NCBI GenBank assembly: GCA_944350425.1 | Contig: CALVOX010000006.1 | Coordinates: 1-64,000, forward strand | Direction: 5' to 3' | Length of the DNA stretch: 64,000 nt | Source: an uncultured Bacilli bacterium | GTDB taxonomy: Bacteria > Bacillota_I > Bacilli_A > RFN20 > CAG-826 | Part shown: positions 18,351 through 37,743 of the stretch, piece by piece | Layout: each line of letters opens with the position of its first letter | Position numbering within the stretch: the stretch's first letter is position 1 | Notes under the pieces: generated by a model | The model's input: only the letters and a program-made list of their open reading frames with translations | Database searches by the model: none | Told to the model about the DNA's origin: nothing | Translations under genes and position numbers: made by a program

Positions 18351-18396
18351 TTAATAATTATTCAAATATAAATTATTCCAGTTATATATTTTTGAA

Positions 18397-19062
18397 TTAT
18401 AATCCTGAAAACACAAAATCTAAGATAACAGAGCCTTTATTTGTTTGAATTTTCCATTCATTAGGATCAATAATTCCGTTTTTATTCCTGTCTATCTCTG
18501 ATGGTAATGAAGTTTTATATTCAAAATTACCATTCAAATTAAAAGCATCGGTTGAAACAAAATCTATCCCAGAATAAGTCTTATCATATTTAAAATGATA
18601 TTCATGCGATTTATCAATAATATTAAAGCATTGTTCCAAAACGCTTCCAGAAGTAAAAGAAATAGTCAATTTACATATGAGCTTTTCTTCAATATTTTTA
18701 ATAGTAGCGTCACCTATTTCGTAACCATTTCCACTTTTTATAGAAACACCGACACTACTTCCTAAAGTATAATAATCTTTTCCTTCGTTATTTATTAAAT
18801 CAGAGTTTTTTGTATAAAATACTAAACCACCATAGGTGGCAAGATTATCAAAATTAGGTTCTAAATAATAAGTATCAGGAGCATAAATATTCACTTTTCC
18901 AAACTGATAAGCATTTGTTACATTAATCTCGATGTCATCAAGACTTGTACTCGATTCTCCTTCTCCAAATACCCAAATTGAAAAACCTGCTCCTATTATT
19001 GAAATAGAAGAAATTAAAGAAAGTACACTAAATATTAAAGATATTTTATGAATTTTATTCAT
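18397..19062 (-). CDS. Camelysin/TasA-like secreted protein (221 aa)
   Basis: The N-terminus is a signal peptide with the SipW-cognate look (SLISSISIIGAGFSIWVFGEG), matching the signal of 22864-23493 (IAGAGFSAWHFG). The rest is a beta-rich exported domain. Near the C-terminus an EF-hand-like loop, DRNKNGIIDPNEW, suggests calcium binding. It overlaps the end of the signal peptidase gene by 8 nt, so the two are translationally coupled. I infer that it is processed by that peptidase and is part of a surface fibre or matrix. The family resemblance rests mainly on the signal peptide. Confidence 0.68.
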   Translation of the reverse strand: MNKIHKISLIFSVLSLISSISIIGAGFSIWVFGEGESSTSLDDIEINVTNAYQFGKVNIYAPDTYYLEPNFDNLATYGGLVFYTKNSDLINNEGKDYYTLGSSVGVSIKSGNGYEIGDATIKNIEEKLICKLTISFTSGSVLEQCFNIIDKSHEYHFKYDKTYSGIDFVSTDAFNLNGNFEYKTSLPSEIDRNKNGIIDPNEWKIQTNKGSVILDFVFSGL

Positions 19063-19996
19063 CTTTATTTTCTTCCTTACTCTCTAAAATATGAGATTCT
19101 TTTAACTTGATGATTAACTTCAAATCTTTATTTAAAGTATTCTCATCTGCAAGTAATAAGAGTCTAGTTTTATATTCATTATTAATCATTTCTTCAGCAT
19201 ATGTTGCTAAGAATAAGAAAATAGCAGCACCTAAAATTGCAATGATACCAATATTTGATTTTATGTAAGTTAAAGTTACACCTAAACCATAATTTTGATA
19301 TCCATTATATTTACCAATAAAATCATCAAACATTAATTCTTTTTCGTAGTTTAAAGAAGATGGATTCGAATCTCCTTGTAAACGATAAATTGTTTCACCT
19401 TTATCATTTTCTTTTATTTCTACAACTCTATGAACGATAACTATATCGTCATGTTTATAAGCTAAAATATCGTATAACTCAATATCATCTTCACTGTTAA
19501 TTTTATCAATACCAATTAATGAATATTGAGTTATTTGATCATTTAAATCATATGTAAGTAAATAATCATTATCTTCATTCTTTTCTTCCATTGAAGAAGT
19601 AAGAATTGTCATATATGTTGTATTTCCAATAAATAAGTTATCGTTATTAATTCTATAAGTTAAACCTGTAATAAATATAGCAAGTAAAAAAGCAATAATT
19701 ACCCCACTAACTACATCCATGATGATATGTAATTTTGAAGTAATACTTTTTTCTCTAGCAATTACATCTTTATATGTAATTAGGTTTTCATTCCTACTTA
19801 AATTTTTCTTATTAGTTTTATATAAAGTCGAAGTAATTTCATCATTTAATTCTTTATCTTCAAAGCCATATTTAATTTGTTTTTTCTTATAAAAAGAATA
19901 AAGAAAGAATAAGAAACAAAAAACAATTACTAAACCTAATATTACAAGTATAGAAATTACTAAAGCAATAACACCTAATCTAGATTGTCCATTCAT
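19055..19996 (-). CDS. sipW: Signal peptidase I, SipW/ER type
   Basis: A membrane serine protease that removes signal peptides. The catalytic serine is in TILTSSME, the histidine that replaces lysine in the SipW/ER class is in DIVIVHRVVEI, and YRLQGDSNPSS is the conserved box E. Helices lie near residues 8-34, 92-114 and 245-265. At 313 aa it is longer than Bacillus SipW (190 aa), with an N-terminal extension carrying an extra helix. The ribosome site is strong (AAGGAGG). It is flanked by genes for a secreted giant protein and a TasA-like protein, its likely substrates. Confidence 0.9.
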   Translation of the reverse strand: MNGQSRLGVIALVISILVILGLVIVFCFLFFLYSFYKKKQIKYGFEDKELNDEITSTLYKTNKKNLSRNENLITYKDVIAREKSITSKLHIIMDVVSGVIIAFLLAIFITGLTYRINNDNLFIGNTTYMTILTSSMEEKNEDNDYLLTYDLNDQITQYSLIGIDKINSEDDIELYDILAYKHDDIVIVHRVVEIKENDKGETIYRLQGDSNPSSLNYEKELMFDDFIGKYNGYQNYGLGVTLTYIKSNIGIIAILGAAIFLFLATYAEEMINNEYKTRLLLLADENTLNKDLKLIIKLKESHILESKEENKDE

Positions 19997-20016
19997 TCTT
20001 TCTTCCTCCTTACTTA

Positions 20017-22743
20017 TTAATTATTAGTATTAACTTCATCTGTTATATAGAATATGTAAGATTTACGTATTCTAAAGTTATCCAAAGATTTAGTTATTTC
20101 CCATTCACTTCCAACATGTTTAATTTCAAATAAATCCATACCAGTAACGTGATCTCTAACATAATAAGCTTTACTAGTATCCTTTGATGCAAGGTATTTA
20201 TTTATCATATCGTGGAAACTAATTTCATCATTAGAAGAAATGCCCAAAGCAGCTCCTGGTGTCCCTAAATCAGTTTGTTCAGCATAAGAACCAATAGTTG
20301 TTCTTCTTTCCCAAAGTTTCTGACTTTCATCCATATCAACATATCCGTCGTCATCTGTATCTCGTTGATCTGCGGTAAAGATGTAAATAGGAATATTTGA
20401 ATGACGATAGGCATATAACTTATAAGTATGATTAACTCTATCGTGGTAAAGTAAGAAGTCATATTTACCTAAGTAAACAGAATTTCTAGGAACATAAATT
20501 CTTTGATTTACCGTATATGTAACATCATTAATTGTTATATTTTTACCAGCTTCAACTAAATCAAAATAATAAGAAGCATCTATAAATATATCATCATAGA
20601 AAACTTCACCATTTTCCGAATTAAAAACCATAGCTTCTAAACTAGAAACGGATGAGTCTTCATTTAACTTTAAATCATTTTCACTTGTTTCAACAAAATT
20701 TATTTCAGACTGATATTTTTCATATAATCTAATTTGAAATGCAGATTCTAACAACGAAGAATAATTTGTAAAGTCGACGTTTCTTAATAAAACTAAATCG
20801 TCGTTACTAATTGTTTTTAAATTTCCTGTATCAATTCGCAATTTATCAGTCAAAATATCTGTAATAACAGAATTATCATAAATATCATTTCCAAATCTAA
20901 TCCCAGAAGTTGATAAATTATCTGCAAAACATACATTATCTTCGAATCTTAGCATAGATAATGAGGTACGATAATTTGAACTTGTTTGAGTGGAAATATT
21001 TTGATCAATATTCAAATTATCTATAAATTTCGACTCTGTAACTTTTTCAATTGCCACTAAAGCCTTTGAATGTAAAGAAGTGTTATCCGAGATAGAAACT
21101 GGACTAGTAACTAAAAAATCTATCTTTTTATTAATTAAAGATGAAATGCTATTATTTTCTATGCTTGTTAAAAGATAGTTATATAATACATTACCACTAC
21201 TATATTTCTCGAAATCAAGCTTAAAACTTCCATATAAGCTTGGTTCAAGTAAGAAAATATAGAAATTATAAACACCTTCACCATAATTATTAAGAATCGG
21301 GTACCTAAAATCACTATTTTCTATCAAAGGAAAAAAATTATGCCAAGTTCCGGACCACCATCCTGAACCTCTTTGATCAATACCATCACAATAAATACTT
21401 AAAGATTGAATATCGTTTAATTTTAACTCAAGATTTTTTATTGAAGCTATAACAACTGGAGGAACATTATCAAACCATAATGGTGGATCTTCTTCTTCCC
21501 CAAATACTTCTTCATATAAAAAGTATTGTTCTTCACTATAAAGTCTTTCATTTAAAGAGTCGCTATTATATTCAAACTTTAGTCTTATGGCATCCCTACC
21601 TCCAGTTCTAGCATCCTCATAATTAGGATGATCATTTACTTGGGCGGCATAATTTTTCCCGTTACTAAAAATAGGATAAAGTCTAATGACACCATTTTCA
21701 TCAGCGTAAGAAGAAAGATCATTCATAATATCAAATGTGGATGTAGTTAAATCCGCAGCCGTAAAAGAATCTTTCATATAATTAGGTTCATTAGTATTTG
21801 ATAAATTTGTTAAACTTCTGGCTGTAAAAGTATTATAACTATTAAAATATCCCCATCCTGCAAAAGCAAAATTATACCAAGTTTGTTCCATAGGAGAACT
21901 ATCACCCATATCAGTAAAAGGAATTAAATTCATTTCATCATAAACATAAGATGGTAAATAATCGGTAACCTCTATTTTGATTGGTAAATATCTTCCAGAA
22001 TGATACTCAAGATTTGGCCAATAACCTAACCTATCATTTCTAAAACGATAATGGTTATAAACCGTTCCTCTATTCCAATTTTCCCTATAAGATTGCAGTG
22101 CACTATCTAGATTTTCCACATTAGGATTAGCTGGTTTAACCGTATTAGTATTATAGTTATAATAAGCCTTACTTCCAATATCTGTTTGAAATATAACCCA
22201 AGATGCCCAATATTCATTAATTTTATCAGGGTTAAAACCATTATCAAATGAATGCACATAAGAATCTTTGTTGTTGTATAAGTTTCTTACACTATAAACT
22301 GAATTAGAAACATAATCAAAGTAGCCTTCATCGCCACTTTGATTATTCAAAATATATTTAGAATTACTTACATGATTATTATAAGGATTAGACAAACTAC
22401 CGTCTCCATTTTCTTCATCATAAGTATATTCAACATAACCGAAAACATCTTCTGGTTTAACATTAGATGGATTTACTTCATATTCATATCCTATTTGAGC
22501 ATATAAAGTAGATGGAAAGAAATAGATAGTATATTCTTTTGAACTATCATCTTTACCACCGGTATAGTTTTCTTTTATATCATCTATACCATTATTTGCA
22601 CTACCATTACCAATGGTAGTGTCATTAATATTAGAAGGTGTATTAAAATAAAAATATGATAAAGCAAAAGAAGGTACTAATACTATTAAAGCTAGTACCA
22701 TAATAAATATAGATAATATTCTTCGTTTATTACTTTTAAACAT
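20017..22743 (-). CDS. Large secreted surface protein (908 aa), unknown
   Basis: A basic N-terminus and hydrophobic segment (residues 8-32, IFIMVLALIVLVPSFALSYF) form a signal peptide or anchor. The mature part is rich in Tyr, Asn, Ser and Asp, as in surface proteins. Near the C-terminus, DTDDDGYVDMDE is a DxDxDG calcium-binding loop. There is no LPXTG sorting motif or C-terminal helix. It lies 20 nt before the signal peptidase gene in one operon. It is probably a structural or adhesive component of the surface layer made with the TasA-like proteins. Confidence 0.72.
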   Translation of the reverse strand: MFKSNKRRILSIFIMVLALIVLVPSFALSYFYFNTPSNINDTTIGNGSANNGIDDIKENYTGGKDDSSKEYTIYFFPSTLYAQIGYEYEVNPSNVKPEDVFGYVEYTYDEENGDGSLSNPYNNHVSNSKYILNNQSGDEGYFDYVSNSVYSVRNLYNNKDSYVHSFDNGFNPDKINEYWASWVIFQTDIGSKAYYNYNTNTVKPANPNVENLDSALQSYRENWNRGTVYNHYRFRNDRLGYWPNLEYHSGRYLPIKIEVTDYLPSYVYDEMNLIPFTDMGDSSPMEQTWYNFAFAGWGYFNSYNTFTARSLTNLSNTNEPNYMKDSFTAADLTTSTFDIMNDLSSYADENGVIRLYPIFSNGKNYAAQVNDHPNYEDARTGGRDAIRLKFEYNSDSLNERLYSEEQYFLYEEVFGEEEDPPLWFDNVPPVVIASIKNLELKLNDIQSLSIYCDGIDQRGSGWWSGTWHNFFPLIENSDFRYPILNNYGEGVYNFYIFLLEPSLYGSFKLDFEKYSSGNVLYNYLLTSIENNSISSLINKKIDFLVTSPVSISDNTSLHSKALVAIEKVTESKFIDNLNIDQNISTQTSSNYRTSLSMLRFEDNVCFADNLSTSGIRFGNDIYDNSVITDILTDKLRIDTGNLKTISNDDLVLLRNVDFTNYSSLLESAFQIRLYEKYQSEINFVETSENDLKLNEDSSVSSLEAMVFNSENGEVFYDDIFIDASYYFDLVEAGKNITINDVTYTVNQRIYVPRNSVYLGKYDFLLYHDRVNHTYKLYAYRHSNIPIYIFTADQRDTDDDGYVDMDESQKLWERRTTIGSYAEQTDLGTPGAALGISSNDEISFHDMINKYLASKDTSKAYYVRDHVTGMDLFEIKHVGSEWEITKSLDNFRIRKSYIFYITDEVNTNN

Positions 22744-22789
22744 ATAACAAAACCTATTAAATAATATTTATTTAATATATATCTAATAG

Positions 22790-22819
22790 TATGGATAAAG
22801 GGGTAGAATTTTATCCATA
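22790..22819 (-). terminator. Hairpin between the TasA-like gene and the 908-aa gene
   Basis: Arms TATGGATAAA (22790-22799) and TTTATCCATA (22810-22819) make a perfect 10-bp stem. It lies after the 218-aa-type gene and before the 908-aa gene. No strong T run follows, so it may be a partial terminator or an mRNA-stabilising hairpin. Confidence 0.45.
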
Positions 22820-22863
22820 TCAATTAGACCAAAGTAAGAATAAGAATAGATGAGGAGAATCTA

Positions 22864-23493
22864 TTAATTAGCAGTAACAGAGATATCAATAGTCATTGAA
22901 GAACCTGTTAAAGCGGTTTTCATAGTTTTCCATTGGGCATATGTTGTAGGTTTTTTTCCAGCAGCATAGTCAAGTAAATAATTGTGAACACCATTATTTA
23001 AAGTAAATGTAAAATCCTCGCCGGATGTAAAACTTACATCATTTAAAGTTAATGTAATTGATGTATCAGTAGGACTACTTGTGGTAGTTAATCCAGTATA
23101 AATCTTGCTCAAATTTGATAAATTAAAATCAAGATATTCGTTAAGTCTCGCATCAAGAGTTACTGTAATTTCAAAATCTAAAGTTGTAAAGTTAGCATGT
23201 TCACCTTCAGTAGTAACATCTAAAACTAAGTTAGTATCTGATGTGTCATTAGTAAAATTAATACCTTCATTAAAAGCTTCAGGTGTTTCTTGATCTAAAC
23301 TTAAAGTTGTAGGTTTAGTGGTTGCTGTAACTGAAACGCTATATTCTGTAGCATCTTCTACAAATGTATTGACAGTTGCTGAATCAGTGTCAGTTGTATC
23401 CGTACCAAAATGCCATGCACTAAAACCAGCTCCTGCAATAACTGCTGCTGATAATACTGGTAAGATTGTCATCAATAATTTTCTTTTTAGCAT
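22864..23493 (-). CDS. TasA/camelysin-like secreted protein (209 aa)
   Basis: A SipW-type signal (MLKRKLLMTILPVLSAAVIA then GAGFSAWHFG) is followed by a Thr/Ser/Val-rich, nearly Cys-free beta domain (VSVTATTKPTTLSLDQ, TSSPTDTSITLTLNDVSF), as in TasA, CalY and related fibre proteins. I chose the ATG at 23491-23493 because GGGAGA lies 7 nt upstream; an in-frame start nine codons earlier has none. It is probably an abundant extracellular fibre or matrix protein. Its upstream region has a nine-G tract inside the likely promoter, suggesting phase-variable expression. Confidence 0.75.
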   Translation of the reverse strand: MLKRKLLMTILPVLSAAVIAGAGFSAWHFGTDTTDTDSATVNTFVEDATEYSVSVTATTKPTTLSLDQETPEAFNEGINFTNDTSDTNLVLDVTTEGEHANFTTLDFEITVTLDARLNEYLDFNLSNLSKIYTGLTTTSSPTDTSITLTLNDVSFTSGEDFTFTLNNGVHNYLLDYAAGKKPTTYAQWKTMKTALTGSSMTIDISVTAN

Positions 23494-23530
23494 ATAAAAT
23501 CTCCCTAATAATTTATACAAAAAAATTTAG

Positions 23531-23566
23531 TGTATTGATTTTACAATACAATACCCCCCCCCGCAA
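23531..23566 (-). promoter_or_regulatory. Promoter of the TasA-like gene with a G9 tract in the spacer
   Basis: On the minus strand a possible -35 TTGCGG (23561-23566) and -10 TAAAAT (23538-23543) are exactly 17 nt apart. The spacer includes most of a run of nine G (23554-23562). The -10 box is also the loop of an inverted repeat, TGTATTG and CAATACA (23531-23537, 23544-23550), a possible operator. Changes in G number would alter the spacing. The promoter assignment is by inspection only. Confidence 0.5.
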
Positions 23567-23705
23567 GTTTTCGCAGGCTTTTTGCTAATAAGTGACAATT
23601 TTAAAGCATAAGTATTATTATATTTTTATTTTTTTGTCACAAAAATCCCATTATTTAAATGTGTAATTATTAAATATATTAAAAACAATTGAAACTTAAT
23701 AAGGA

Positions 23706-23939
23706 TTAAATCGATATAAATGCCATTACAACTAAATATAAAATATAAATAAATAGCAATACGGAAAGAATTACAAAAGTTAAGAATACTTTAAAGTTCT
23801 TCTTATAGTTAATAGCTTTTTCTTTCCTAATCGTTTGATATTCTACTTTCTTTTGAGTAGTTCTTCTTTTAGGTTTAGTAATTTCATCTTGATATGTATT
23901 TTCAACATTCTTTTTTCTTTTCTTAACTTCGTTTTCCAT
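23706..23939 (-). CDS. Small basic membrane protein (77 aa)
   Basis: The N-terminal 45 residues are highly basic (VKKRKKNVENTYQDE, KPKRRTTQKK). One long hydrophobic helix (FLTFVILSVLLFIYILYLVV) ends the protein, so the N-terminus is expected to be cytoplasmic. I recognise no family. It lies upstream of the surface-protein locus on the same strand, separated by the G9-containing intergenic region. Confidence 0.5.
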   Translation of the reverse strand: MENEVKKRKKNVENTYQDEITKPKRRTTQKKVEYQTIRKEKAINYKKNFKVFLTFVILSVLLFIYILYLVVMAFISI

Positions 23940-24005
23940 AATTACTATAAATGTTACCTTAATTTAATGTTTTTATCTAGATTATATTAATAAAGATTAT
24001 TTTTC

Positions 24006-24149
24006 TTATTTTATTAAACCATCGATTTTTAATACTAGATAAAGAAATAAAGTAAAAGCATATATGAATAAAATTATAAGTCTAGTACTTAGAGCATATG
24101 ACAATACATAAAAAATTAAGCTATATATTCTTAATTTTTCTGATAACAT
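24006..24149 (-). CDS. Possible small hydrophobic protein (47 aa)
   Basis: An open frame from ATG at 24147-24149 to TAA at 24006-24008 encodes a mostly hydrophobic peptide (YSLIFYVLSYALSTRLIILF). There is no clear ribosome site, and AT-rich DNA produces such frames by chance. An inverted repeat (24111-24120, 24130-24139) lies inside it, which could instead mark an RNA hairpin. The rest of this intergenic stretch shows nothing else. Confidence 0.22.
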   Translation of the reverse strand: MLSEKLRIYSLIFYVLSYALSTRLIILFIYAFTLFLYLVLKIDGLIK

Positions 24150-24227
24150 TTACTCAAGTGGAAACTAATCAAATCGATAATTATTGATAAATCTATAAAA
24201 TAAGAGATAAATTGTTAAATAATTTTA

Positions 24228-25133
24228 TTACTTATTTTTCTTTATATTATTTAAATAAGCTTCTAAATAAGAAGTAAAAGCTTTTTTAAACTTATTATTT
24301 AAAATAACATAATCTTTTGATGATATTCTTAATAAAGGATAAAATAATTCGTTTTCACTATTTCCTTTTACTTCAAATATAAGTCCATCTACTTTACCTT
24401 TATTTTCATAATATTTAATAAATTTATCTAATACATTCTTATTTTTACATTTAACTCTTAATAGATAAGTTTTATCTTGATGAAGATAAAACTTAATACC
24501 ATAATTATTTAGTCTATCTTGTATTTTATTTAATAAGTTATTATCTAGATTAAACTTTTCTATATACTTAATATTATCTATATAATTTACATCATATACT
24601 TTAACTTTATTATCTTTTAAATCTAATCCAATTAAATAATAAGTATGATTAGTATATAAAACTTTATATGGATTAATATCTATATTATCTTCTATATCTT
24701 TATATTTAAAAGATATACCTACTTTATCATTAATTGAAGTAACTACTTCAATTAATTTATTTAAAGTATTACTAGTTATTTCGTTATCACCTTCAATAAT
24801 ATTATATTTAATGATATTAGGTATATCTTTTAAATATTCCCCTAACTTTTTATTATGTTTAGAAGATAATACTAATGCTAGAGCAATATTCGGAACAAGT
24901 AAACTTGATGGTTCTAATTTATCGAATAAACGATATCCTCCATTAAGTCCTCTTTTAGTATCAATATAAAATTTAGCTAGATTTAAATCATCGATATATC
25001 TTCTTACTTGTCTAGCACATTTCTTATCTAAATCTAGATAATCTAAAATTTCATCTAGACCAATAAATCTTCTAGAATCATAGTTTTTGTTTAAATAATA
25101 GAGTATTTCTAATTCTTGAGATAACTTTGACAC
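24228..25133 (-). CDS. WYL-domain transcriptional regulator
   Basis: A 301-aa protein with an N-terminal winged helix (RRFIGLDEILDYLDLDKKCA through RQVRRYIDDLNL) and a central WYL-type ligand-sensing domain (NPYKVLYTNHTYYLIGLDL). WYL regulators often control defence or DNA-damage genes. It starts at GTG (25131-25133) after AAAGGAAT. It is divergent from the nuclease-like gene at 25211 with only 77 bp between them, so it probably controls that gene and perhaps the whole 24-31 kb cluster. Confidence 0.82.
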   Translation of the reverse strand: MSKLSQELEILYYLNKNYDSRRFIGLDEILDYLDLDKKCARQVRRYIDDLNLAKFYIDTKRGLNGGYRLFDKLEPSSLLVPNIALALVLSSKHNKKLGEYLKDIPNIIKYNIIEGDNEITSNTLNKLIEVVTSINDKVGISFKYKDIEDNIDINPYKVLYTNHTYYLIGLDLKDNKVKVYDVNYIDNIKYIEKFNLDNNLLNKIQDRLNNYGIKFYLHQDKTYLLRVKCKNKNVLDKFIKYYENKGKVDGLIFEVKGNSENELFYPLLRISSKDYVILNNKFKKAFTSYLEAYLNNIKKNK

Positions 25134-25210
25134 TTAACTTTTATTCCTTTCTTTTATTTTATAAGTTTTAATGTTAAAATAAACCTAAATTTTAAATCGT
25201 TAATACTATT

Positions 25211-26110
25211 ATGGCTAAAAAGATCGATTACGAAAAAATTATAATAAACCGAATAGATGCTATTTTTAAAAAAGGATCTAAATTAAACTCAGTTAAAAAC
25301 GCAACTATTGAAGATCTTTATGATTTATTAAGTAAAAATAAAGTTGATCCTTCAAAACACAAGCCAGCCAAATATTCAATCCTACAAAATCTCTTTTCAG
25401 AATATGTTTACCAAACATTTTTCCTAAACAATAAACATTCATTTGATGAAATTAAGCCTTTACCCATAACATTAGAAAATTGTATTCCAAATACTCATAG
25501 TAACAAATATGAGATAAATCCAAAAAACGAAAAACAACAATGTATATATTTAGTAAATAATAAAGAATTAAATGAAAAGAATTTACTTTTTAGTTTTAAA
25601 AATAAATCAATTAAACCTTTATATTTTGAAGCTCCTATTAGTTCTAGATATCGTCGTAAATCTAATGTTGATTTAATTACTCTTGATAGAGACATTAATC
25701 AATTAATATTAAATGAGTATAAAATACCTTCATCTAAAGAAAATTTATTTAGAGCAGTAAGTGAAATATTAACTTATGCGCATTGGTTAGATATCTTTAA
25801 TTCTGGATATTATTTGGAAGAATCTAGAAAATATTTTAAAGACTACAAAATAGATTCTTTAGCATTAGGAGTAATTGTTCCGCTAGATCAATATAAATTT
25901 GGTCATCGTTATGCTTATGAATTAATCGAAAAATATAAATTTAGATGTTTTACATTTAATGAAGATAATGATAGATATAAGATTATTGAATTAAGTAAAG
26001 AAGAAACTAATAACTATAAAGAAATAGCACTTAGAAATAACGAAACTCTTTATAAATACTCTAATTTAATAGCAAATTTAGTTAATGGTAAACTTAATAA
26101 TCAAGAGTAA
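25211..26110 (+). CDS. Putative PD-(D/E)XK-fold nuclease (299 aa)
   Basis: I recognise no named family. The segment 150-190 has the pattern of a PD-(D/E)XK core: Asp154 in SNVDLITLDRD, then Glu169-x-Lys171 in LILNEYKI, then a helix rich in Glu and aromatic residues (RAVSEILTYAHWLD). The protein is soluble. ATG at 25211 has no obvious ribosome site. It diverges from the WYL regulator, and its last 17 bp overlap the end of the opposing 305-aa gene. Nuclease activity is an inference from the motif alone. Confidence 0.55.
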   Translation: MAKKIDYEKIIINRIDAIFKKGSKLNSVKNATIEDLYDLLSKNKVDPSKHKPAKYSILQNLFSEYVYQTFFLNNKHSFDEIKPLPITLENCIPNTHSNKYEINPKNEKQQCIYLVNNKELNEKNLLFSFKNKSIKPLYFEAPISSRYRRKSNVDLITLDRDINQLILNEYKIPSSKENLFRAVSEILTYAHWLDIFNSGYYLEESRKYFKDYKIDSLALGVIVPLDQYKFGHRYAYELIEKYKFRCFTFNEDNDRYKIIELSKEETNNYKEIALRNNETLYKYSNLIANLVNGKLNNQE

Positions 26111-27011
26111 CATAATGTTCATCATAGCAAAATTTAACTTTCTTATTCTTTAAGTTATATTCATTAATTATTTCTTCTTTTATCTTAGCTTTATTTAAAG
26201 ATTTATCGATATAAATAAGGTAAATCTTATTTAAATTATCAAATAATACTCTCCCTCTAGGATAATAACTATATTCCCCATATTTATTTAAAGTATTAAA
26301 AAATAACATATGTCCCATATTAGAATCAAAATAAAGTAATTTAACATTAAACGATTCTACTTTTTCTTTATAAGCATAAACTTTAGAATCTATATAAAAG
26401 AATGGACCTACAAAACTACCTTCTTCTTTTATTAAAGTATTAAAGAATATATCTTCATAATGTATTTTAAAATAAGCTAGATAATATATATTATTAAATA
26501 ATTTAGTAGAATCACTTAATTTAGATAAATTCTTTATATTTAATATCTCTTCTTTAAGATATTTAGATAAATTAAAATTATAAATGGTTAATTTTAATTT
26601 ATCTAAATCATTTATTAACTTTATAGCTTTATCATAATTTAAATTATTATTAGATTTGATTAAATAACTAAGTAATTTAGGTTTACTAGTAATAATGCTA
26701 TTTATCCCATATTCTTTAATATCTTTTAATATTAATTTCTTAGAGTGAAACTTAGAATTTACTAAATTTAAAATTAATATAAATTCATTAATATTTTTAG
26801 GTTTAACTAAATTAACTAGATTATATAAATCATTAAAGTTATTAAAGTAACATCCTTGTAATGAAGGAAGATAATAAGCATAATCAAATTCTTTGATAAT
26901 GTAAGATATAATCTCATTATCAAAGAATTTAATATCACTTAAATTGATATTAGTTAATTTAGCTAATTCTTTTATTCTTTCATCATATTTATTACTTAAT
27001 TTATTAGCCAT
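26094..27011 (-). CDS. PolC-fingers-like domain fused to a PRGRV/DEHY domain (305 aa)
   Basis: Residues 1-195 align well by eye with residues 1-192 of the 866-aa PolC-like protein of the same operon (for example IKELAKLTNINLSD against IEKIAGLCNADLSI, and YLAYFKIHYEDIFFNTLI against TLMYFKMNYRNVFNKVIF). Both follow the C-terminal fingers region of PolC, which ends in a YFKVHYP-type motif. Residues 200-305 are a separate domain with PRGRV (251-255) and DEHY (297-300), resembling small uncharacterised Firmicute proteins I recall with the same two motifs. It starts 1 nt after the stop of the 318-aa gene. The function is unknown. Confidence 0.6.
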   Translation of the reverse strand: MANKLSNKYDERIKELAKLTNINLSDIKFFDNEIISYIIKEFDYAYYLPSLQGCYFNNFNDLYNLVNLVKPKNINEFILILNLVNSKFHSKKLILKDIKEYGINSIITSKPKLLSYLIKSNNNLNYDKAIKLINDLDKLKLTIYNFNLSKYLKEEILNIKNLSKLSDSTKLFNNIYYLAYFKIHYEDIFFNTLIKEEGSFVGPFFYIDSKVYAYKEKVESFNVKLLYFDSNMGHMLFFNTLNKYGEYSYYPRGRVLFDNLNKIYLIYIDKSLNKAKIKEEIINEYNLKNKKVKFCYDEHYVTLDY

Positions 27012-27012
27012 A

Positions 27013-27969
27013 TTACTTCATTAGTTCTAAGAATCTATATCCATTAATCACATTATTAGAACATGCACTTTCTTCACTTCTACCATCTATTTTAATAAAT
27101 AAACTTAATTCAATATTATTCTTTTTTAAATAATCTATCTTAGTTTCTAGATAATTAAATACATGATAAGTTTCTTTAACTACATTAACTAAATGAGATT
27201 TAAGATCTAAGTTATTTAATATATATTTTAATGGTGGAAAAGAGTAAAAATAGATTAAATTCTTCTTTTTAGATGATTTATAATCAGTGATTGCCATTAA
27301 ATGAGTTAAAAGTTGTTTAATATAAAAGTAAGTTTTTTGTTCAACATTACTTCCTTTATCTTTATAAAGTTTATCTAATTCAAAATAAGTGTATGGATTA
27401 ATATTAAAATTACATTGATCTATTTTTAATTCTTTTATTAACTCTTTCTTTCCATATGTTAATCTTAAGTCAAATTCATGCTTATCAAAATACTCATGGC
27501 ATTTACATTCAAAGAAATATAATTCTTTTTCTCCTTCCATAAATGCATCAATATAACTATTTTTATTTAGTTCTTTTATTTTTAATGCTTTTTCATAAGT
27601 ATTTGAGTTATTAAGTAACTTATCACCGCCTTTTAAAAAATAATTAAAACCTAGCTTATCTAAATAATTTTTGTTTCTTAGAGAATAGAAACAAAAATTA
27701 GAACTTGATCCAATTGAAAGAAATTTAGGTGGTCTTACTCCTTTACTTATTAATTCTTCTCCCCCACCTTTTAAATATGCGAAATAAGCATTTTGGTAGT
27801 TATTTAAATCTATATAAAATCTACCATTTTTATCTAAAAATTCATCTTTAAAATAATTAGAATATCTACCACTTCTAAATTCATTTGAAACATCTTTATT
27901 TCTTTTTTCGAGCTCTTCTTTAATATAAATTTCTTTTAATAAATTATCATAATCTTTCTTAGTAAACAT
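27013..27969 (-). CDS. Putative PD-(D/E)XK restriction-type nuclease (318 aa)
   Basis: The core NSYIDAFMEGEKELYFFECK has the order Asp141, Glu154-x-Lys156 on two predicted beta strands, the classic PD-(D/E)XK arrangement; Glu127 on the preceding helix may be the first acidic residue. The general plan (SNFCFYSLRN before the core and a long helical tail) recalls the PGN_0703-like putative restriction endonucleases. No methyltransferase gene is nearby. It has a strong ribosome site (AAGGAG) and is translated just ahead of the 305-aa gene. Catalysis is inferred. Confidence 0.62.
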   Translation of the reverse strand: MFTKKDYDNLLKEIYIKEELEKRNKDVSNEFRSGRYSNYFKDEFLDKNGRFYIDLNNYQNAYFAYLKGGGEELISKGVRPPKFLSIGSSSNFCFYSLRNKNYLDKLGFNYFLKGGDKLLNNSNTYEKALKIKELNKNSYIDAFMEGEKELYFFECKCHEYFDKHEFDLRLTYGKKELIKELKIDQCNFNINPYTYFELDKLYKDKGSNVEQKTYFYIKQLLTHLMAITDYKSSKKKNLIYFYSFPPLKYILNNLDLKSHLVNVVKETYHVFNYLETKIDYLKKNNIELSLFIKIDGRSEESACSNNVINGYRFLELMK

Positions 27970-28073
27970 AACTTCTCCTTATAAAGATAATAAATCAATA
28001 ATTAAATCTAGCAAGATAGAAACATTGTTACAAAAATTAGTAGTTGATGAAATATAGTTTCTAGGAATTCTAT

Positions 28074-28490
28074 TTATAACACAAGAAAATTGTCTCTTTT
28101 TGGTGCTACAAATTCTCCTTCAACATATTCTCCAGTTAACCAATTTACAATTCCATTTTTATAAATAATCCACATATCTTCATCTCTAGAGATTCCTGAA
28201 TTTAAAGCCATTATTCAATCATTTTCTTTATCTAAACCAACCCAAAATAAAGGATTTAAATAATTCATTGCTATACATTCAAAAGAATAAATATTCCTAG
28301 TTAATATTTCTAATCGTTTTAATGTTTCTTTATTAACAAAATCAATGTTATTTTCTAGTTCTATTCTTTTAAAAATAGGGAGTCCATTAATTGTATCTCC
28401 AGTAAAAGCTAAATTATCATATAAGTCATATCTAATATCTTTAGCATAGATTGAATAATAATCTATAAAGTTATCACTTCTAATTTCCAT
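28074..28490 (-). pseudogene. Small soluble protein interrupted by one in-frame TGA (91 + 45 codons)
   Basis: The first part runs from ATG 28488-28490 (after AGGGGAA) for 91 codons to TGA at 28215-28217. The reading frame continues without shift: one codon later comes an ATG (28209-28211) and 45 more codons to TAA (28074-28076). The joined product reads smoothly across the stop (GLDKEND-x-IMALNSGISRDE), as if a TGG tryptophan had mutated. It could be a recent nonsense mutation, a readthrough site, or two coupled small genes. I recognise no family. It lies between the PolC-like gene and the nuclease gene. Confidence 0.55.
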
Positions 28491-28521
28491 AAATTCCCCT
28501 TACTACTAAAAGTATTAAGCA

Positions 28522-31122
28522 CTATTGCTGACATAAAAACGAACAATAAACAAAAATAAATACAATTATTAAGTTCTTAACGACAGTTGATTTTCCAAGA
28601 AGGTATTCTATATTAATAAAATATTCAATATAGTCTTTAGGAACATTAAACTTACGTAAAATCCCTTTATCTTCTTTACCTCTTCCTGTGTATATGTAGA
28701 ATGTAATTCTTTTAGACTGATCAGCATCCTTAATAAACTTAAGCAAGAAAATAAATAAATCTTCTCTAGATGAAATAATATCCTTTATATTTAAAACTCC
28801 ATTATTTAAATAACGCTTTTTTAATAAATCTATATATTTACTAGAAGAAGAGCTAAATAATATTCCATAAACTCTTACTAAATCAGAGAAACTATTTATT
28901 TTAACTAACTTTAATATTTCTTTTATCTCTAAATTATTTACTAGATTTAAGCTTCTTAGTTTCTTATCTTTTATTTTATTATTTAAAAAATCTTCACTAT
29001 TAAAGAAAGAGAGAACTTTTTTATCATTTAAATTAATGCTAGAAAGAATTAAGTTATTTTTATTTAATAAATCACTAACTTCATCCATTATTTTAGAAGT
29101 TTTAAAAGAAATTATAGGAAAAATCCACTTCAAATACCTATTAGTAAAATAAGTAACTTCATTTATTAAAGGAGTAAACTCATAAATATTGACATCCTTT
29201 GGAACAATAATAAACGAATTTTCAAATTCATTAATTTTAGATAAATTTAAATCATTATAATCTTCTTTTAATCTTATAATCTTATTATCGTTAAATGTTT
29301 CTTTTAAGACTTTATAGGCTTTATCGATCAATTTAGAATTTATACTTATTTTAATATCAATATTAAACTTTCCATCTAAATGATTTAAATTATAGTAAGT
29401 AAATAAATCATTATCTTCTAAAGAAAATATAGTTAAAGGATCAATATTACTTATACCAAGTAAATAATAAGTAAAAAGAATATTACTTTGATTAGTTAGA
29501 TATATTATTCCTTCTTCATTTAATTTATTGAAGAAGGAATAATAATAAAGTAATGTAGAACATAAATCATATTTATTATTTAATGTATCTATCTCTTTAA
29601 ATACTATTTCTTTTATCTTTTCATATAATTCTAGATTATATTTTTCTTTAACCTTTAAATCACATATCTCTTTTAATCTCTCTTTAGAATTATTTATTTT
29701 AATTAAAGAATATGGTCTAGGTAAAAAGTTAAAACTATTATTATCAATTAAAGAAACTAACTTATTAGGATTAATTAAAATATACTCATATAATTTTTCT
29801 TTATCTTCAATAAATAAAGAAAGAGAATCACATAATTCTTTAGTATTTAAGTATCTCGTTTTATATTCGTTGTCTTCTTTAGTGTTAATGTTAAAACAAT
29901 TAGATAATACTTCTTTAACTATATTACTCTCATTAAGTTTAAAATAAGGATTTGATGTTCCAATAATTATCTTTTTAGATTCTTCTCCTATTTTTACTAC
30001 TATATTTACTATTTCTTTCAATTCATTTAAATCCAATTTAGGAAGATTTAATAAGGAATAATTTGAAAGAGGTTCAATTTCGATATAATCATAAAAATTA
30101 ATTCTTTCTTTTAATGTTTCATAATCTTTATTTAAAGCTAAATAAAATAGTTCGCTTTCAAAACAAGGTGAACCAATAAATATATCTTTTCGATACTTAT
30201 TAATTTGATCAAAAGTTACATAAAACTTATCGTTAATTATTTTAGCTTTACTTATAAGTTCATAGAGGTTTCTTACTCCTAATTTAGTTCTAGGAAGAAA
30301 AGAAACTTTATAAATTTGAGTGTTATCATTTCTAACATTAAGTTCTATGCCTTGAATAAATTTTTTTAGTCCGTATCTTATTTTTATAGAATTTAAAATA
30401 TCTAGATTATATAAATGCGAATCATTGCAAATAACAAGAACATCAATATTATCTCTTTCTTTTATTGAATCTATACATTTTTCAAGTGTTTCATAAGATC
30501 TTACTTCATGATAAAAATGTGAATTTATTTCAACTCTATTTAAATCTTTAAAAATAACTTTATTAAAAACATTTCTATAGTTCATCTTAAAATACATTAA
30601 AGTAATAATATCTTTATATAGATTTAATAAATACTCTTCACTTTTTATTTCTTTTAAATTTTTAATTAGATTGATAAGAAATTTATCTTCAACATATGAT
30701 TCTAATATAAATATATCTTTTCTAAATAGATGTGGTACTTGATTAATAATAAATATAGCATCATCTTTATCTATTTCGAAACCAATTAAAAGATTAACTA
30801 AACTTTCATTACTCAAAGTAAGATAACCGTAATTATTAAAGACTTCAATTAAGTAACTTAAATCTTCATTCCCAAAAAAAGTTAATTCATTTAAAGCTAA
30901 AATAGAGAGAAATTCTTCTTTTGTTTTTGGTTTAAACTCATTAATTAATTTATATAATCGGCTTAATTTATGATTATAAATTCCATATAAATCAAATGTC
31001 TTATCTTTTAATATGTATGATAATATTGTTTCTTCATTAATGTTAATTATTGATAAGTCGGCATTACATAAACCTGCTATTTTCTCTATTTTTTCTTGAT
31101 AATTTACAAAATTTTTATCCAT
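28522..31122 (-). CDS. Degenerate PolC-like protein with duplicated fingers domain (866 aa)
   Basis: By eye this follows DNA polymerase III PolC from the PHP domain to the end, but in an altered order. Residues 1-192 resemble the PolC C-terminal fingers, 196-455 a PHP domain without the inserted exonuclease (RTKLGVRNLYELISKAKIIN, DIFIGSPC, FYDYIEIEPL), 456-690 the palm (SFIIVPKDVNIYEFTPL), and 690-866 the fingers again. Active-site features are lost. The glycine-rich GSRGSVGSS loop is TNQSNILFT (543-551), the paired aspartates are NID (587-589), the third aspartate is absent, and the PHP HxH is NSH. It has a good GGAGG site and heads a four-gene operon. It is probably a non-catalytic DNA- or polymerase-binding factor. 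Confidence 0.7.
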   Translation of the reverse strand: MDKNFVNYQEKIEKIAGLCNADLSIININEETILSYILKDKTFDLYGIYNHKLSRLYKLINEFKPKTKEEFLSILALNELTFFGNEDLSYLIEVFNNYGYLTLSNESLVNLLIGFEIDKDDAIFIINQVPHLFRKDIFILESYVEDKFLINLIKNLKEIKSEEYLLNLYKDIITLMYFKMNYRNVFNKVIFKDLNRVEINSHFYHEVRSYETLEKCIDSIKERDNIDVLVICNDSHLYNLDILNSIKIRYGLKKFIQGIELNVRNDNTQIYKVSFLPRTKLGVRNLYELISKAKIINDKFYVTFDQINKYRKDIFIGSPCFESELFYLALNKDYETLKERINFYDYIEIEPLSNYSLLNLPKLDLNELKEIVNIVVKIGEESKKIIIGTSNPYFKLNESNIVKEVLSNCFNINTKEDNEYKTRYLNTKELCDSLSLFIEDKEKLYEYILINPNKLVSLIDNNSFNFLPRPYSLIKINNSKERLKEICDLKVKEKYNLELYEKIKEIVFKEIDTLNNKYDLCSTLLYYYSFFNKLNEEGIIYLTNQSNILFTYYLLGISNIDPLTIFSLEDNDLFTYYNLNHLDGKFNIDIKISINSKLIDKAYKVLKETFNDNKIIRLKEDYNDLNLSKINEFENSFIIVPKDVNIYEFTPLINEVTYFTNRYLKWIFPIISFKTSKIMDEVSDLLNKNNLILSSINLNDKKVLSFFNSEDFLNNKIKDKKLRSLNLVNNLEIKEILKLVKINSFSDLVRVYGILFSSSSSKYIDLLKKRYLNNGVLNIKDIISSREDLFIFLLKFIKDADQSKRITFYIYTGRGKEDKGILRKFNVPKDYIEYFINIEYLLGKSTVVKNLIIVFIFVYCSFLCQQ

Positions 31123-31316
31123 TTAATCTAGCCTCCAAATATTTATATTAATTATAAAAATTATTTAAGGACATAAAATGGAACAATTTAAAAAATATAA
31201 ATTTACTATTAAGTCTTATCTTTTAATTAACCGATACTATAAATTACTTTGCGTATAGCCGGTATTTATGATAAAAACAACTTTGCGCTTTGGACAAAAA
31301 GTTATATGATATATTT

Positions 31317-32702
31317 ATGGAATTACAAAGAGAAATTTATCAAAAACTAAAAGATTGGAAGAATTCATCCAACGGGAAAACAGCATTGCTTATCGAAGGA
31401 GCCAGACGTGTTGGAAAAACAACAATTGTTAAAAAATTCGCTGAAGAAAACTATAAATCATATATCTTGCTGGATTTCAATGTTGTTAGTAATAAACTAA
31501 AAAATAGTTTTCAAAATAATCTTGGAAATTTAGATCTTTTATATCAAGATATAAGTTTAGAGAAAAATACTGAATTATTTCCAAGACATACTTTAATTAT
31601 TTTTGACGAAATCCAAGCATTTCCTAGAGCTAGAGAAGCAATTAAATATCTAGTTCAAGATGGAAGATACGATTTGATTGAAACTGGCTCTTTAATTTCA
31701 ATAAAAGAAAATGTCTCTACAATCACAATTCCAAGTGAAGAAGAAAAAATAAAAATGTATCCTCTTAATTTTGAAGAATTTATGCTCGCAAAAAACGAAA
31801 AAATACTTCTTTCACATATTAAAGATTGTTTTGAAAAGAAAATAAAGTTAGATAGATTTTACCATAATAAAGCCATGCGTATTTTTTATGAATATCTCTT
31901 AGTTGGCGGGATGCCACAAAGCGTAACAGAATATTTAGAAAATAATCTAAGTTTTTACAAAAGCGATAAAGCAAAACGAGATATTTTATCTCTTTACGAA
32001 GATGACATCAAAAAATCTAGACAGAAATATAGTTCTAAAGTTGAGGCTATCTTTTCGCATATTCCTAGTAATCTTTCAACTCACGAAAAGAAACTAAAAC
32101 TTAATACTTTTGACCAAAATGGTAAATTTTCTAACTATGATGAATCATTATATTGGCTAGGAGACTCTATGATTTGTAATCTATGCTATAAAACAAACGA
32201 CCCTAACGTTGGACTTTCGCTAACTTTAAATGATAAAGAAGTTAAATGCTATTTGGGTGATACTGGTTTGCTATTCAGCCAGGCTTTTAATGAAAACCAA
32301 ATAAAAACTGATAATTTATATAATGCAATTATTAGTGGTAAATTATCAATTAATAAAGGGATGTTACTTGAAAATTATGTTGCTCAAGCTTTAACTTCTA
32401 TGAGTAAAAAATTATTTTTTTATACACACTATAGTAATGAAAAACATAGAAATGATATAGAAATTGACTTTCTAATATCAAACGAAGTGAAAACAAACTT
32501 GAAAATAATACCAATTGAAGTTAAATCTAGCACAAATTACACCACTACCTCTCTAGATAAATTTAAAGAAAAATTTAAAAATAGAGTTTATTATTCTATT
32601 ATAATTCATCCAAAAGAATTTAGTATCGACCACGAAAATAAAACAATTAAGATTCCACCATATATGGTTCCATTTATTGATTCAAATTACTTTGATGAAT
32701 AA
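31317..32702 (+). CDS. AAA_14/DUF4143 family ATPase (461 aa)
   Basis: An AAA+ domain with Walker A EGARRVGKTT and Walker B LIIFDEIQ is followed by the DUF4143 domain. That domain ends in a PD-(D/E)XK-like core (NDIEIDFLI then IIPIEVKSS). Such proteins are abundant in small-genome anaerobes and archaea and have no settled function. I prefer ATG 31317 because the family usually begins with an ELxRxIYxKLxxWK segment; an in-frame TTG at 31290 would add nine residues. Neither has a clear ribosome site. Two copies of ACTTTGCG precede it (about 31249 and 31280). Confidence 0.85.
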   Translation: MELQREIYQKLKDWKNSSNGKTALLIEGARRVGKTTIVKKFAEENYKSYILLDFNVVSNKLKNSFQNNLGNLDLLYQDISLEKNTELFPRHTLIIFDEIQAFPRAREAIKYLVQDGRYDLIETGSLISIKENVSTITIPSEEEKIKMYPLNFEEFMLAKNEKILLSHIKDCFEKKIKLDRFYHNKAMRIFYEYLLVGGMPQSVTEYLENNLSFYKSDKAKRDILSLYEDDIKKSRQKYSSKVEAIFSHIPSNLSTHEKKLKLNTFDQNGKFSNYDESLYWLGDSMICNLCYKTNDPNVGLSLTLNDKEVKCYLGDTGLLFSQAFNENQIKTDNLYNAIISGKLSINKGMLLENYVAQALTSMSKKLFFYTHYSNEKHRNDIEIDFLISNEVKTNLKIIPIEVKSSTNYTTTSLDKFKEKFKNRVYYSIIIHPKEFSIDHENKTIKIPPYMVPFIDSNYFDE

Positions 32703-32787
32703 AACTAAACAAAAACTTCAATAAAGATCTTTAAATTGTTTATTAAAGAAACAAAAACTTCTGTTTCAAAAAGTTACTCCCACATAA

Positions 32788-33045
32788 TTAATCATTTTTT
32801 AAACCATTAATAAGTTCAATTTTTGTATCAACTTTTGAAAGAAATGCCTTTCTGATTAATGAAGCTTTGGTTTCATAAATACCATCTTTAAATTTTGCAT
32901 TAACTGTCATCATTGGAGCTCCAAGAACAAATTCATTTCCCTTGTCTTTAAGAATTGCAATATTACCAACACTAGCTCCCATAAATCCTTTTTTAAAAGC
33001 TAAAATTGCTTCTGCATCAGTCATTGAATATGAAAATTTTGCTAT
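32788..33045 (-). CDS. Small unknown protein (85 aa) with an apparent ATA start
   Basis: A perfect AGGAGG (33055-33060) is followed 9 nt later by ATA (33043-33045) where the start should be. The frame continues AKFSYSMTDAEAILAFKKGF and ends at TAA 32788. The open frame extends upstream to a GTG at 33103-33105, but then the ribosome site would be translated as Arg-Arg. It may use a rare ATA start, or be a gene whose ATG has decayed; an internal ATG eight codons on lacks a site. The protein is soluble and mixed alpha/beta in look. I do not recognise it. Confidence 0.45.
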   Translation of the reverse strand: MAKFSYSMTDAEAILAFKKGFMGASVGNIAILKDKGNEFVLGAPMMTVNAKFKDGIYETKASLIRKAFLSKVDTKIELINGLKND

Positions 33046-33255
33046 TTGATTAATCCTCCTAAAAATAAGATACCCCCATTCAAAAATCAAGCACTTTCTG
33101 GGCACATTGTTCTTACTTGTCTACAAAACTTCTCTTTTTAATTTTCGAAGTGACTAGTCATCCAATAATAGTATTGACATTTTAAAGTATGCCTAATTTT
33201 TATGATTAAATATCCAGACTTTTCTTGTCTTTAACAATTCACGTTATTCTTTTAA

Positions 33256-33302
33256 TTAAAAAAATGAAAATGCCTTTAAGAACACTCATTCTTAAAGGCA
33301 TT
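33256..33302 (-). terminator. Terminator after asnS
   Basis: Perfect 14-bp arms, AATGCCTTTAAGAA (33269-33282) and its complement (33289-33302). On the minus strand they are followed by TTTTCATTTTTTT. This is a strong rho-independent terminator for asnS. Confidence 0.88.
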
Positions 33303-33328
33303 GATAATATTATAACTAAAAAGGTAAG

Positions 33329-35705: not shown

Positions 35706-36354
35706 TTAAAATTTATTGTCATCTTCAATTTTCCAAGAAGAGTCAACACCAATACTTAAATCGGTAAATAATTCTTTTTTATATAAATATTCACCAACTT
35801 TGCAAATCATAGCAGCATTATTGGTAGTTGCCCATAAAGGTGGAATAACAACTTTTATATCAGAATCATTAAATTTTTCTTTAATTTTACTTCTTAAATA
35901 GGAGTTTGCACTTACTCCACCAGCTAAAACTATTTCTTTAACTTTATATAAAGTTGTCGCTCTAACTACTCTATCCATTATTTCTTTTATGGCTACATCT
36001 TGGAAAGATTTAGCCATATTTGGAACATTAATCTCATGTCCTAACATCTTTTCTTTATTTACTAAATTAATTTTCTGTAGTTTTAAGTCCAGAATAAGAA
36101 ACATTTAAAGAATTATCTTTTAATGGCTCGGGAAGTTTATAGGTATGTTCTCCTTCTTTTGCAAGTTTATGAATTGCAACTCCTCCTGGATAAGGTAAAC
36201 CTAAAACTCTAGCAACTTTATCATAACTTTCACCAATTGCATCATCAATTGTTTCGCCAATTATTTCAAAAGATAAATGCTCTTTAATATAAACAAACTC
36301 AGTATTTCCACCACTAACTACTACAATTAAAGAAGGAAAAATATAGTCCACCGC
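35706..36354 (-). pseudogene. Decayed 3' fragment of a second tsaD copy
   Basis: The fragment corresponds to residues about 134-344 of the intact tsaD at 37890-38924. It begins near FPSLIVVVSGGNTE (intact: FPCLAVVVSGGNTE). A frameshift follows SYSGLKT: one frame ends LKTTEN-stop and the other resumes with INLVNKEKMLGHE and reads to the native C-terminus (SWKIEDDNKF). Protein identity to the intact copy is high by eye, but substitutions are spread along it, so it is not very recent. The ATPase gene 36367-37743 lies between the two copies. Confidence 0.88.
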
Positions 36355-36366
36355 TAATACTAATAA

Positions 36367-37743
36367 TTAATAAGAAAAATTATCTTCTTTAATATCTTTT
36401 AGTAAAAAGGAAACATAGTAAAAAGGAATCGTTAATATTTTATTAACTTCATCGAAACCAAAATTATTAGAAGAAATTTTTATTGCTATATCAGCCTTAT
36501 TATGGATTCTAAATTCATTTAAAGAATTTAACCTATCTCTTCCTTTCTTTACTTCAATTGGAATAACTCTATTTCCAATATTAATTATAAATTCAAATTC
36601 ACTATTTCTTTTTCCTTTCCAATAAAATAGATTAAGCCCAGCAGCAATTAGTTCATTTGCAACAAAATTTTCATAGTAAATTCCAGATAAAGAATTGTTT
36701 TTATCAAATAAAAAGGATCTTGCATTTAATTCGCTTTGATAAGTAAAAATGCCCATATCTCCTAAATATAATCTCATTAAAGAGCTTTCTTCTTGAATTA
36801 ATGGTGTAGTTACTATTTCTTTTAATTGAAATGATTGATTAACAATTTTTGCTAATACAAGCCAAGCAACAGGGTTAGCCATATCTTTCCATCTTGCACC
36901 TTCTTCAATTAATGAAAACTTAAAGTTTTTGTTTTCTTTATTTAACTGTTTATAGATATTTTTAAAGATAAGTTTGCTTCTTACAATTGATTCAGGTGAA
37001 GCTTGATAAAGTTCCATATCACCAAGATAGTTGTCATAAATTTCTTTAATAATAGGAATAACTTGTTTATAAACACCAACTCTATCGTCTTTATGACTAA
37101 TAAAATAATCGTCAACTTCTGGTAAACCACCAACAAAAAGATAATCATTTACGATATCTAATAATCTAAGATGAATTGTATTGTCTAAAGGCGTTTTCTT
37201 TTTATAGCTTTCTTTAACAAAATTATAAGTATTTTCGTTGTAATTAAGCAAAAATTCATCAAAAGTTAATGGATACATTTTAAGTTGGTTGATTTTACCA
37301 ACAGGAAAAAGAAATTTAGGTGAATTACTATCTAAACCTCGTTTATGACTTTCTCTAAAAATCTTTATTCGCAATAATGATCCTGAAACTATTACTGGAA
37401 TATCTCTTCTTTGTTCACAAAAATGTTTTAACATTTTAACTAATGGTAAACATTCCTGAACCTCATCGAAAAACAATAAATGATTTTTATCAGCCTTAAA
37501 ATCATATCTAATTTCAATATAATCCAAAACGTCTTTTAAATTATTTTTGCTAAATACAAAATCGACAAATTCTTTATCGTCCGAACAATCTATTTTAAGA
37601 TATCTGTTTTTAAAATAAACCTTAGCAAAAAGTTCTTCGACTAAAAAAGACTTTCCAACTTGCCTTGCACCCCATAAAATTAGAGGCTTTCTATATTCTG
37701 AATCTTTCCAGGCTATTAATTCATCTAAATATTTTCTCTTCAT
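36367..37743 (-). CDS. AAA_14/DUF4143 family ATPase (458 aa)
   Basis: Walker A GARQVGKS and Walker B LLFFDEVQ are followed by the DUF4143 part. Its end has a PD-(D/E)XK-like core (NSEFEFIINIGNRVIPIEVKKG). It differs in detail from the copies at 31317 and 50226, so these are separate family members and not fresh duplicates. ATG 37741-37743 has no ribosome site. Upstream are four 33-bp repeats. The gene separates intact tsaD from the tsaD 3' fragment, which suggests that it arrived by insertion with duplication of its target. Confidence 0.85.
   Translation of the reverse strand: MKRKYLDELIAWKDSEYRKPLILWGARQVGKSFLVEELFAKVYFKNRYLKIDCSDDKEFVDFVFSKNNLKDVLDYIEIRYDFKADKNHLLFFDEVQECLPLVKMLKHFCEQRRDIPVIVSGSLLRIKIFRESHKRGLDSNSPKFLFPVGKINQLKMYPLTFDEFLLNYNENTYNFVKESYKKKTPLDNTIHLRLLDIVNDYLFVGGLPEVDDYFISHKDDRVGVYKQVIPIIKEIYDNYLGDMELYQASPESIVRSKLIFKNIYKQLNKENKNFKFSLIEEGARWKDMANPVAWLVLAKIVNQSFQLKEIVTTPLIQEESSLMRLYLGDMGIFTYQSELNARSFLFDKNNSLSGIYYENFVANELIAAGLNLFYWKGKRNSEFEFIINIGNRVIPIEVKKGRDRLNSLNEFRIHNKADIAIKISSNNFGFDEVNKILTIPFYYVSFLLKDIKEDNFSY

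Follow-up and report, generated by a model that had tools for sequence, protein, structure and literature searches.

An apparently polymerase-dead, domain-shuffled PolC relative in a recurrent WYL and nuclease-like gene cassette of Bacilli

The genes of the cassette

The window analysed here, a stretch of 64,000 nucleotides from a contig of an uncultured Bacilli bacterium (CALVOX010000006.1), contains a small gene cassette that encodes, besides a WYL-domain regulator and a nuclease-like protein, two proteins related to PolC, P0001 and P0002. Some of the genes are compared below with their orthologues in a genome of a second species, G023. The features are as follows.

18351..33328, unstranded: insertion of about 15 kb that holds the cassette (comparison with four congeners)
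24228..25133, minus strand: P0005, WYL-domain transcription regulator (Pfam WYL, 1.2e-5; PADLOC WYL, 3e-10)
25211..26110, plus strand: P0004, 299-aa protein, within the cassette in the window and in G023
26094..27011, minus strand: P0002, PolC-fingers-like domain and a C-terminal domain of about 105 aa (profiles; structure model with pLDDT 76 and a Foldseek match to PolC)
27013..27969, minus strand: P0003, PD-(D/E)xK nuclease-like protein (E72, D141 and E154-C-K156 invariant in the alignment)
28074..28490, minus strand: broken gene of the F153 family with in-frame TGA codons (comparison with G023)
28522..31122, minus strand: P0001, PolC-derived, apparently polymerase-dead protein of 866 aa (PolC HMM, E 7e-53; HHalign probability 99.9)
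31132..31136, minus strand: GGAGG ribosome-binding site, read in the sequence, 9 nt upstream of the ATG of P0001

The plus strand of the P0001 interval is interrupted by stop codons throughout, and the open reading frame is that of the minus strand. Its 866 uninterrupted codons and the position of GGAGG agree with the preliminary description of the gene as an open frame with a good ribosome site. In P0003, a putative nuclease, the PD-(D/E)xK motif is invariant across the family alignment; the protein matches no Pfam family, and its homologue in G080 is recognised by the Cas4 model of PADLOC (E 3e-5). P0004 is encoded on the opposite strand inside the cassette and is kept in both species with a dN/dS of 0.34. 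Its candidacy as a relative of the P0003 nuclease was ruled out by HHalign, and HHalign comparison with the other cassette proteins revealed no relationship. A gene divergent from P0001 (31290-32702) encodes an AAA_14/DUF4143 ATPase that PADLOC assigns to PDC-S01 (E 3.5e-102); it is intact in the window and divided into two ORFs in G023. P0001, P0002 and P0003 match no defence system catalogued in PADLOC.

P0001 is a homologue of PolC

The claim that the 866-aa product follows PolC through the PHP, palm and fingers regions is borne out by profile searches. An HMM built from the PolC proteins of related genomes matches P0001 with E 7e-53; the match falls into two segments, one from residue 267 to 541 and the other from 689 to 848. 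HHalign aligns P0001 with PolC colinearly over residues 270-852 (probability 99.9, E 1.6e-36). The NCBIfam PolC models also match, PRK00448 with E 6e-37 and a second one with E 7e-34, although the score of 126.7 bits misses the curated PolC cut-off of 873. Among PolC chains of known structure, 9qpc is matched with 1.5e-23 and 3f2b with 8e-21. In Pfam the PHP and fingers regions fall slightly under the cut-off and the palm is unmatched, as expected because the palm is broken. By these comparisons P0001 is a true PolC homologue, far beyond what chance would produce. It is 28% identical to the PolC of its own genome, which encodes an intact PolC and an intact DnaE elsewhere. The place of P0001 in a tree of PolC proteins is unsupported (44%), and its branch has a length of 3.2 compared with about 0.2 for the PolCs. 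A structure model of P0001 is poor (pLDDT 46.5); PolC was represented in its input alignment by the post-exonuclease part only, and because of these PolC rows the structural matches of the model to PolC are not independent evidence.

Missing domains and a broken palm

The arrangement of P0001, from its N-terminus to its C-terminus, is as follows.

30547..31122, minus strand: residues 1-192, additional fingers-like domain at the N-terminus (HHalign with the fingers of PolC, E 7.5e-14)
30328..30546, minus strand: residues 193-265, degenerate first half of PHP with no exonuclease after it (alignment by eye with the PolC of the same genome)
29500..30324, minus strand: residues 267-541, latter half of PHP, the thumb and the first part of the palm (PolC HMM segment 1, 129.7 bits)
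29470..29496, minus strand: TNQSNILFT, residues 543-551, replacing the GSRGSVGSS loop (HHalign and a second alignment)
29350..29364, minus strand: N587-I-D-I-K591, replacing the PDID aspartate pair (alignments; register ambiguous by two residues)
29107..29109, minus strand: S672 in place of the third palm aspartate, FDFHSIHDN (HHalign)
28579..29058, minus strand: residues 689-848, truncated C-terminal fingers (PolC HMM segment 2, E 6e-15)

Aligned by eye, residues 196-262 look like the first half of PHP in degraded form, with NSH and NDS in place of the HLH and TDH of PolC. The match to PolC resumes at residue 267, at a point that in PolC follows the exonuclease, and the exonuclease insert is absent, as had been proposed. 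The 866 residues likewise hold no sequence for the OB domain, the zinc cluster or the HhH C-terminus.

The palm has lost its catalytic signature. The glycine-rich triphosphate loop is gone, TNQSNILFT occupying the site of GSRGSVGSS, and no aspartate aligns with the third palm aspartate, for which HHalign places S672 and the second alignment likewise offers no Asp. Both losses had been read correctly from the sequence alone. The statement that P0001 lacks the aspartate pair needs a slight correction. F-N587-I-D589-I-K591-I aligns with PDIDLNF of PolC, and depending on the register the pair corresponds to D589/K591 or to N587/D589, so that one aspartate is kept, be it the first or the second, and never both; "lacks" is slightly overstated because up to one aspartate of the pair is retained. 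After alignment the palm triad is not intact, and P0001 is apparently a non-catalytic, polymerase-dead protein. That P0001 is an ordinary, active PolC-type DNA polymerase III is scarcely credible, since the triad is broken and the zinc cluster, exonuclease, OB and HhH domains are absent.

Fingers domains at both ends and in P0002

The preliminary description had also placed a copy of the fingers domain at the N-terminus of P0001 (residues 1-192), and this arrangement is upheld by two kinds of search. A small alignment of the N-domain family matches PolC fingers with a probability of 98 and E 7.5e-14 (HHalign), and in the reverse direction profiles of P0002-like proteins find the fingers of ordinary PolC proteins in many genomes across the class, with E values down to 1e-12. 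Going by these matches, P0001 has a diverged second copy of the fingers in residues 1-192. The C-terminal fingers domain stops short at "FPKAHA", and an unrelated hydrophobic tail ends the protein.

Residues 1-192 of P0001 share 28% identity with the N-domain of P0002. The predicted structure of P0002 (pLDDT 76), whose alignment contained no PolC, has C-family polymerases as its top five Foldseek matches, PolC being the first, with an E value of 2e-3 at best. The model thus lends independent support to a PolC fingers fold in P0002. The C-terminal domain of P0002 (26094-26400) has the conserved pattern GPFFYI..YPRGRV..D.HY and no Pfam name; domains of this type, of about 105 aa, are also found apart from PolC pieces (L082, L093).

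A recurrent cassette with fragments of PolC

Among 144 relatives a single orthologue of P0001 was found, in G023; it is 93% identical and of equal length, and this form of the protein is known only from the window and G023. The cassette is more widespread. Traced with profiles built from the N-domain, from P0002-like proteins and from the nuclease-like P0003, PolC-derived proteins occur in 11 loci (the window, G023, G067, G075, G080, G177, G196, G228, G239, L088 and L089). Ten of these loci contain the WYL regulator, the exception, G067, being cut by the end of the contig. The PD-(D/E)xK nuclease-like protein is likewise present in 10 of the 11, and its diverse versions form one superfamily according to HHalign. 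In the remaining locus, G075, its slot between the WYL gene and the F153 gene holds a different protein of 250 aa (L053:4760-5512; DLFIEGDDYVLIGEGKW), possibly an unrelated nuclease.

The PolC-derived content varies from locus to locus. G080, where the P0002-like copy is truncated, and G177 contain only fingers. A palm remnant, fingers and a C-terminal domain are combined in proteins of 467 aa in G075 and G239 and of 446 aa in G067; the G075 protein matches the Pfam palm model with E 7e-12, and G239 has in addition a separate HhH piece of 214 aa (HHH_6, E 5e-8). Palm-fingers proteins of 495 or 496 aa in G196, L088 and L089 match PolC with E 3e-38 to 6e-40. By eye, the counterpart of PDIDLNF reads PRFDLCI in the 467-aa proteins and YSIEFRV or YSIDFRV in the 495/496-aa proteins, and inspection by eye of the PolC-derived proteins of the 11 loci revealed no intact palm.

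The cassette is rare: of 279 genomes of the order, 14 have a member of the nuclease family, and of 392 genomes sampled across the phylum, 3 do. The linkage of this family to PolC pieces is strong and not absolute, since members in G037, G106 and G223 occur without them. A recurrent cassette composed of WYL, nuclease-like and PolC-fragment genes, along with other cargo, is well supported. P0001 is not a lone oddity; it is one of a small number of PolC-derived fragments that comprise a palm remnant, fingers or HhH, and it shares with P0002 both a fingers domain and a place in the recurrent cassette, a setting that the preliminary description had missed.

Acquisition of the cassette

In four congeners the genes found at 16.2-18.35 kb of the window adjoin asnS or are separated from it by a single gene. 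About 15 kb (18.35-33.33 kb) has therefore been inserted in the window genome. Of 26 genomes of the genus, 3 carry the WYL gene, which in one of them is a relict. The GC content of the cassette is 20.5% compared with 25-27% around it, and dS between the window and G023 is 0.04-0.09 in the cassette compared with 0.35-0.38 in the flanking asnS and tsaD. The cassette of L088 adjoins genes that by eye resemble those of tails and holins. The cassette is a rare, horizontally acquired, accessory element of Bacilli.

Two further observations concern the surroundings. The 15-kb insertion also encodes a large protein of secreted type and a TasA-like surface protein (20017-23520), which are more diverged from G023 than the cassette (79% DNA identity for the TasA-like gene). 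Farther along, two tsaD-like fragments (35706-36351 and 36367-37743) lie beside a gene for an ATPase of the AAA_14/DUF4143 type and next to an intact tsaD (37890-38924); they look like the remains of a further tsaD copy that was broken up.

Constraint or decay

Comparison of the orthologues in the window and G023 by the Nei-Gojobori method yielded a dN/dS of 0.63 for P0001 (CI 0.42-1.08), and of 0.15-0.34 for P0002, P0003, P0004 and P0005. Within P0001, dN peaks in the N-domain and the degenerate PHP. The 92 substitutions are distributed almost evenly over the three codon positions (30/25/37). This spread and the dN/dS value would suit a once-useful PolC-derived protein that drifts and is still open by chance. 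Such decay is visible nearby: the adjoining F153 gene carries an in-frame TGA in both genomes, at different codons, which suggests that it was broken independently in the window and in G023, the AAA_14 gene is split in G023, and relict copies occur in G002 and G015. Against decay, P0001 has acquired no indel and no stop codon, where 4.7 stops are expected in a simulation with the observed substitution spectrum (P=0.006); the same neutral simulation predicts 70.5 amino acid changes, of which 63 are observed (P 0.04), and a good ribosome-binding site precedes the gene. P0001 is under weak constraint, and decay is a real rival explanation, which we regard as rather unlikely.

The preliminary description held that a non-catalytic polymerase relative retained as a full frame implies a new role. 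In favour of this view are the broken palm, the intact PolC and DnaE encoded elsewhere and the preservation of the frame in a second species; "implies" is too strong because the upper bound of dN/dS is 1.08, another cassette gene close by is broken, and P0001 may itself still be degenerating.

Possible function of the PolC-derived proteins

The context of the cassette suggests that broken-up parts of a polymerase have been reused, perhaps against phages. In the explanation that we prefer, with a probability of about 0.4, P0001 is a domain-shuffled, dead descendant of PolC in a WYL-regulated nuclease cassette, its parts recognising primer-template DNA or the replisome, and its role is probably defensive. 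The WYL protein would hold the cassette at a low level as long as there is no DNA damage or infection. The PolC-derived proteins, through their fingers and in P0001 also through the PHP/thumb scaffold, would bind primer-template DNA or proteins of the replisome, and this binding might direct the nuclease to DNA in active replication, probably of foreign origin, where proteins of the P0003 type would act. Retention of the fingers and of the PHP/thumb scaffold points to binding of this kind, and the linkage of WYL and nuclease-like genes, their sporadic distribution and their mobility suggest a role in defence against phages or plasmids. Several observations speak against this explanation: the weak constraint on P0001, a branch about ten times longer than those of PolC, the restriction of the P0001 form to two genomes, the poor structure model, the members of the nuclease family that occur without PolC pieces, and the lack of a match of the PolC-derived proteins to a known defence system. 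The earlier suggestion that P0001 binds a primer end, the clamp or an invading replisome gained no evidence from the analysis; the search of P0001 for a clamp-binding motif produced none that convinces, the sole clamp-like string being QSNILF (residue 545) inside the degenerated loop. A more far-reaching version, according to which this is a new defence cassette whose catalysis-stripped C-family pieces sense or target and steer a PD-(D/E)xK nuclease to replicating foreign DNA, is tentative and perhaps doubtful.

P0001 could also be a decoy, an imitation of PolC that binds or senses phage factors aimed at the host polymerase while the nuclease or another partner acts. It resembles the host PolC across most of the fold, lacks the catalytic palm and evolves fast, with its long branch and with dN highest in the N-domain and degenerate PHP. 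However, an identity of 28% to the PolC of its own genome is poor for a mimic of a binding surface, the sister cassettes carry only fingers or HhH pieces, and a literature search brought up no phage inhibitor of PolC; we consider a decoy unlikely. As a poison of replication, P0001 would act as a dominant-negative subunit of the replisome, in competition with PolC as soon as repression by the WYL protein is lifted, and would cause abortive infection. The polymerase architecture kept without catalysis and the linkage to a WYL regulator would fit, but P0001 lacks both terminal regions of PolC as well as a convincing clamp motif, and we consider this role quite improbable. Finally, an ordinary extra copy of PolC or a replicative polymerase of a phage or plasmid, which the clear homology to PolC might suggest, is scarcely credible in view of the broken triad and the lost zinc cluster, exonuclease, OB and HhH domains, all the more as tblastn of phage and plasmid collections gave only PolC-like matches of 24-37% identity over about one-third of P0001 or less and a scan of viral contigs with P0001 found no relative.

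If the cassette works as proposed in the preferred explanation, the replicase itself would have been taken apart into modules for recognition. It would then offer a direct route to what the parts of PolC recognise apart from catalysis.

Comparison with known systems

In the Y family, dead polymerases are known to serve as accessory proteins. To our knowledge, no palm-dead branch of the replicative C family has been described, and the open-access literature yielded no description of PolC-derived proteins in defence cassettes. The accessible parts of a 2026 survey of polymerases in more than 3000 bacteria report inactive members of the Y and X families and inactive PHP and exonuclease domains, and describe no palm-dead C-family group (PMC12926913).

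With PolC (PDB 3f2b, 9qpc), the replicative DNA polymerase III alpha of Bacillota, P0001 shares the order PHP-thumb-palm-fingers over residues 267-848. It differs from PolC in lacking the OB domain, the exonuclease, the zinc cluster and the HhH/C-terminus, in its broken palm and in its extra N-terminal fingers. Genes for WYL regulators are found next to phage defence systems of diverse kinds (PMC9122601), and in the loci regulated by BrxR (PMC9122601) and by the CBASS regulator (PMC9122588) a WYL protein is encoded beside a compact, sporadic and mobile set of genes, as it is here. Unlike the BREX and CBASS loci, the cassette of P0001 has PolC-derived proteins as its core, and a defensive role is what we infer from the likeness of the setting. 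ImuB and other inactive Y-family polymerases (PMC12926913) resemble P0001 in that a catalytically dead polymerase has become an accessory of a gene module. ImuB, however, belongs to the Y family and has DnaE2 and RecA-like proteins as partners, whereas the partners of P0001 are a WYL regulator and a nuclease-like protein.
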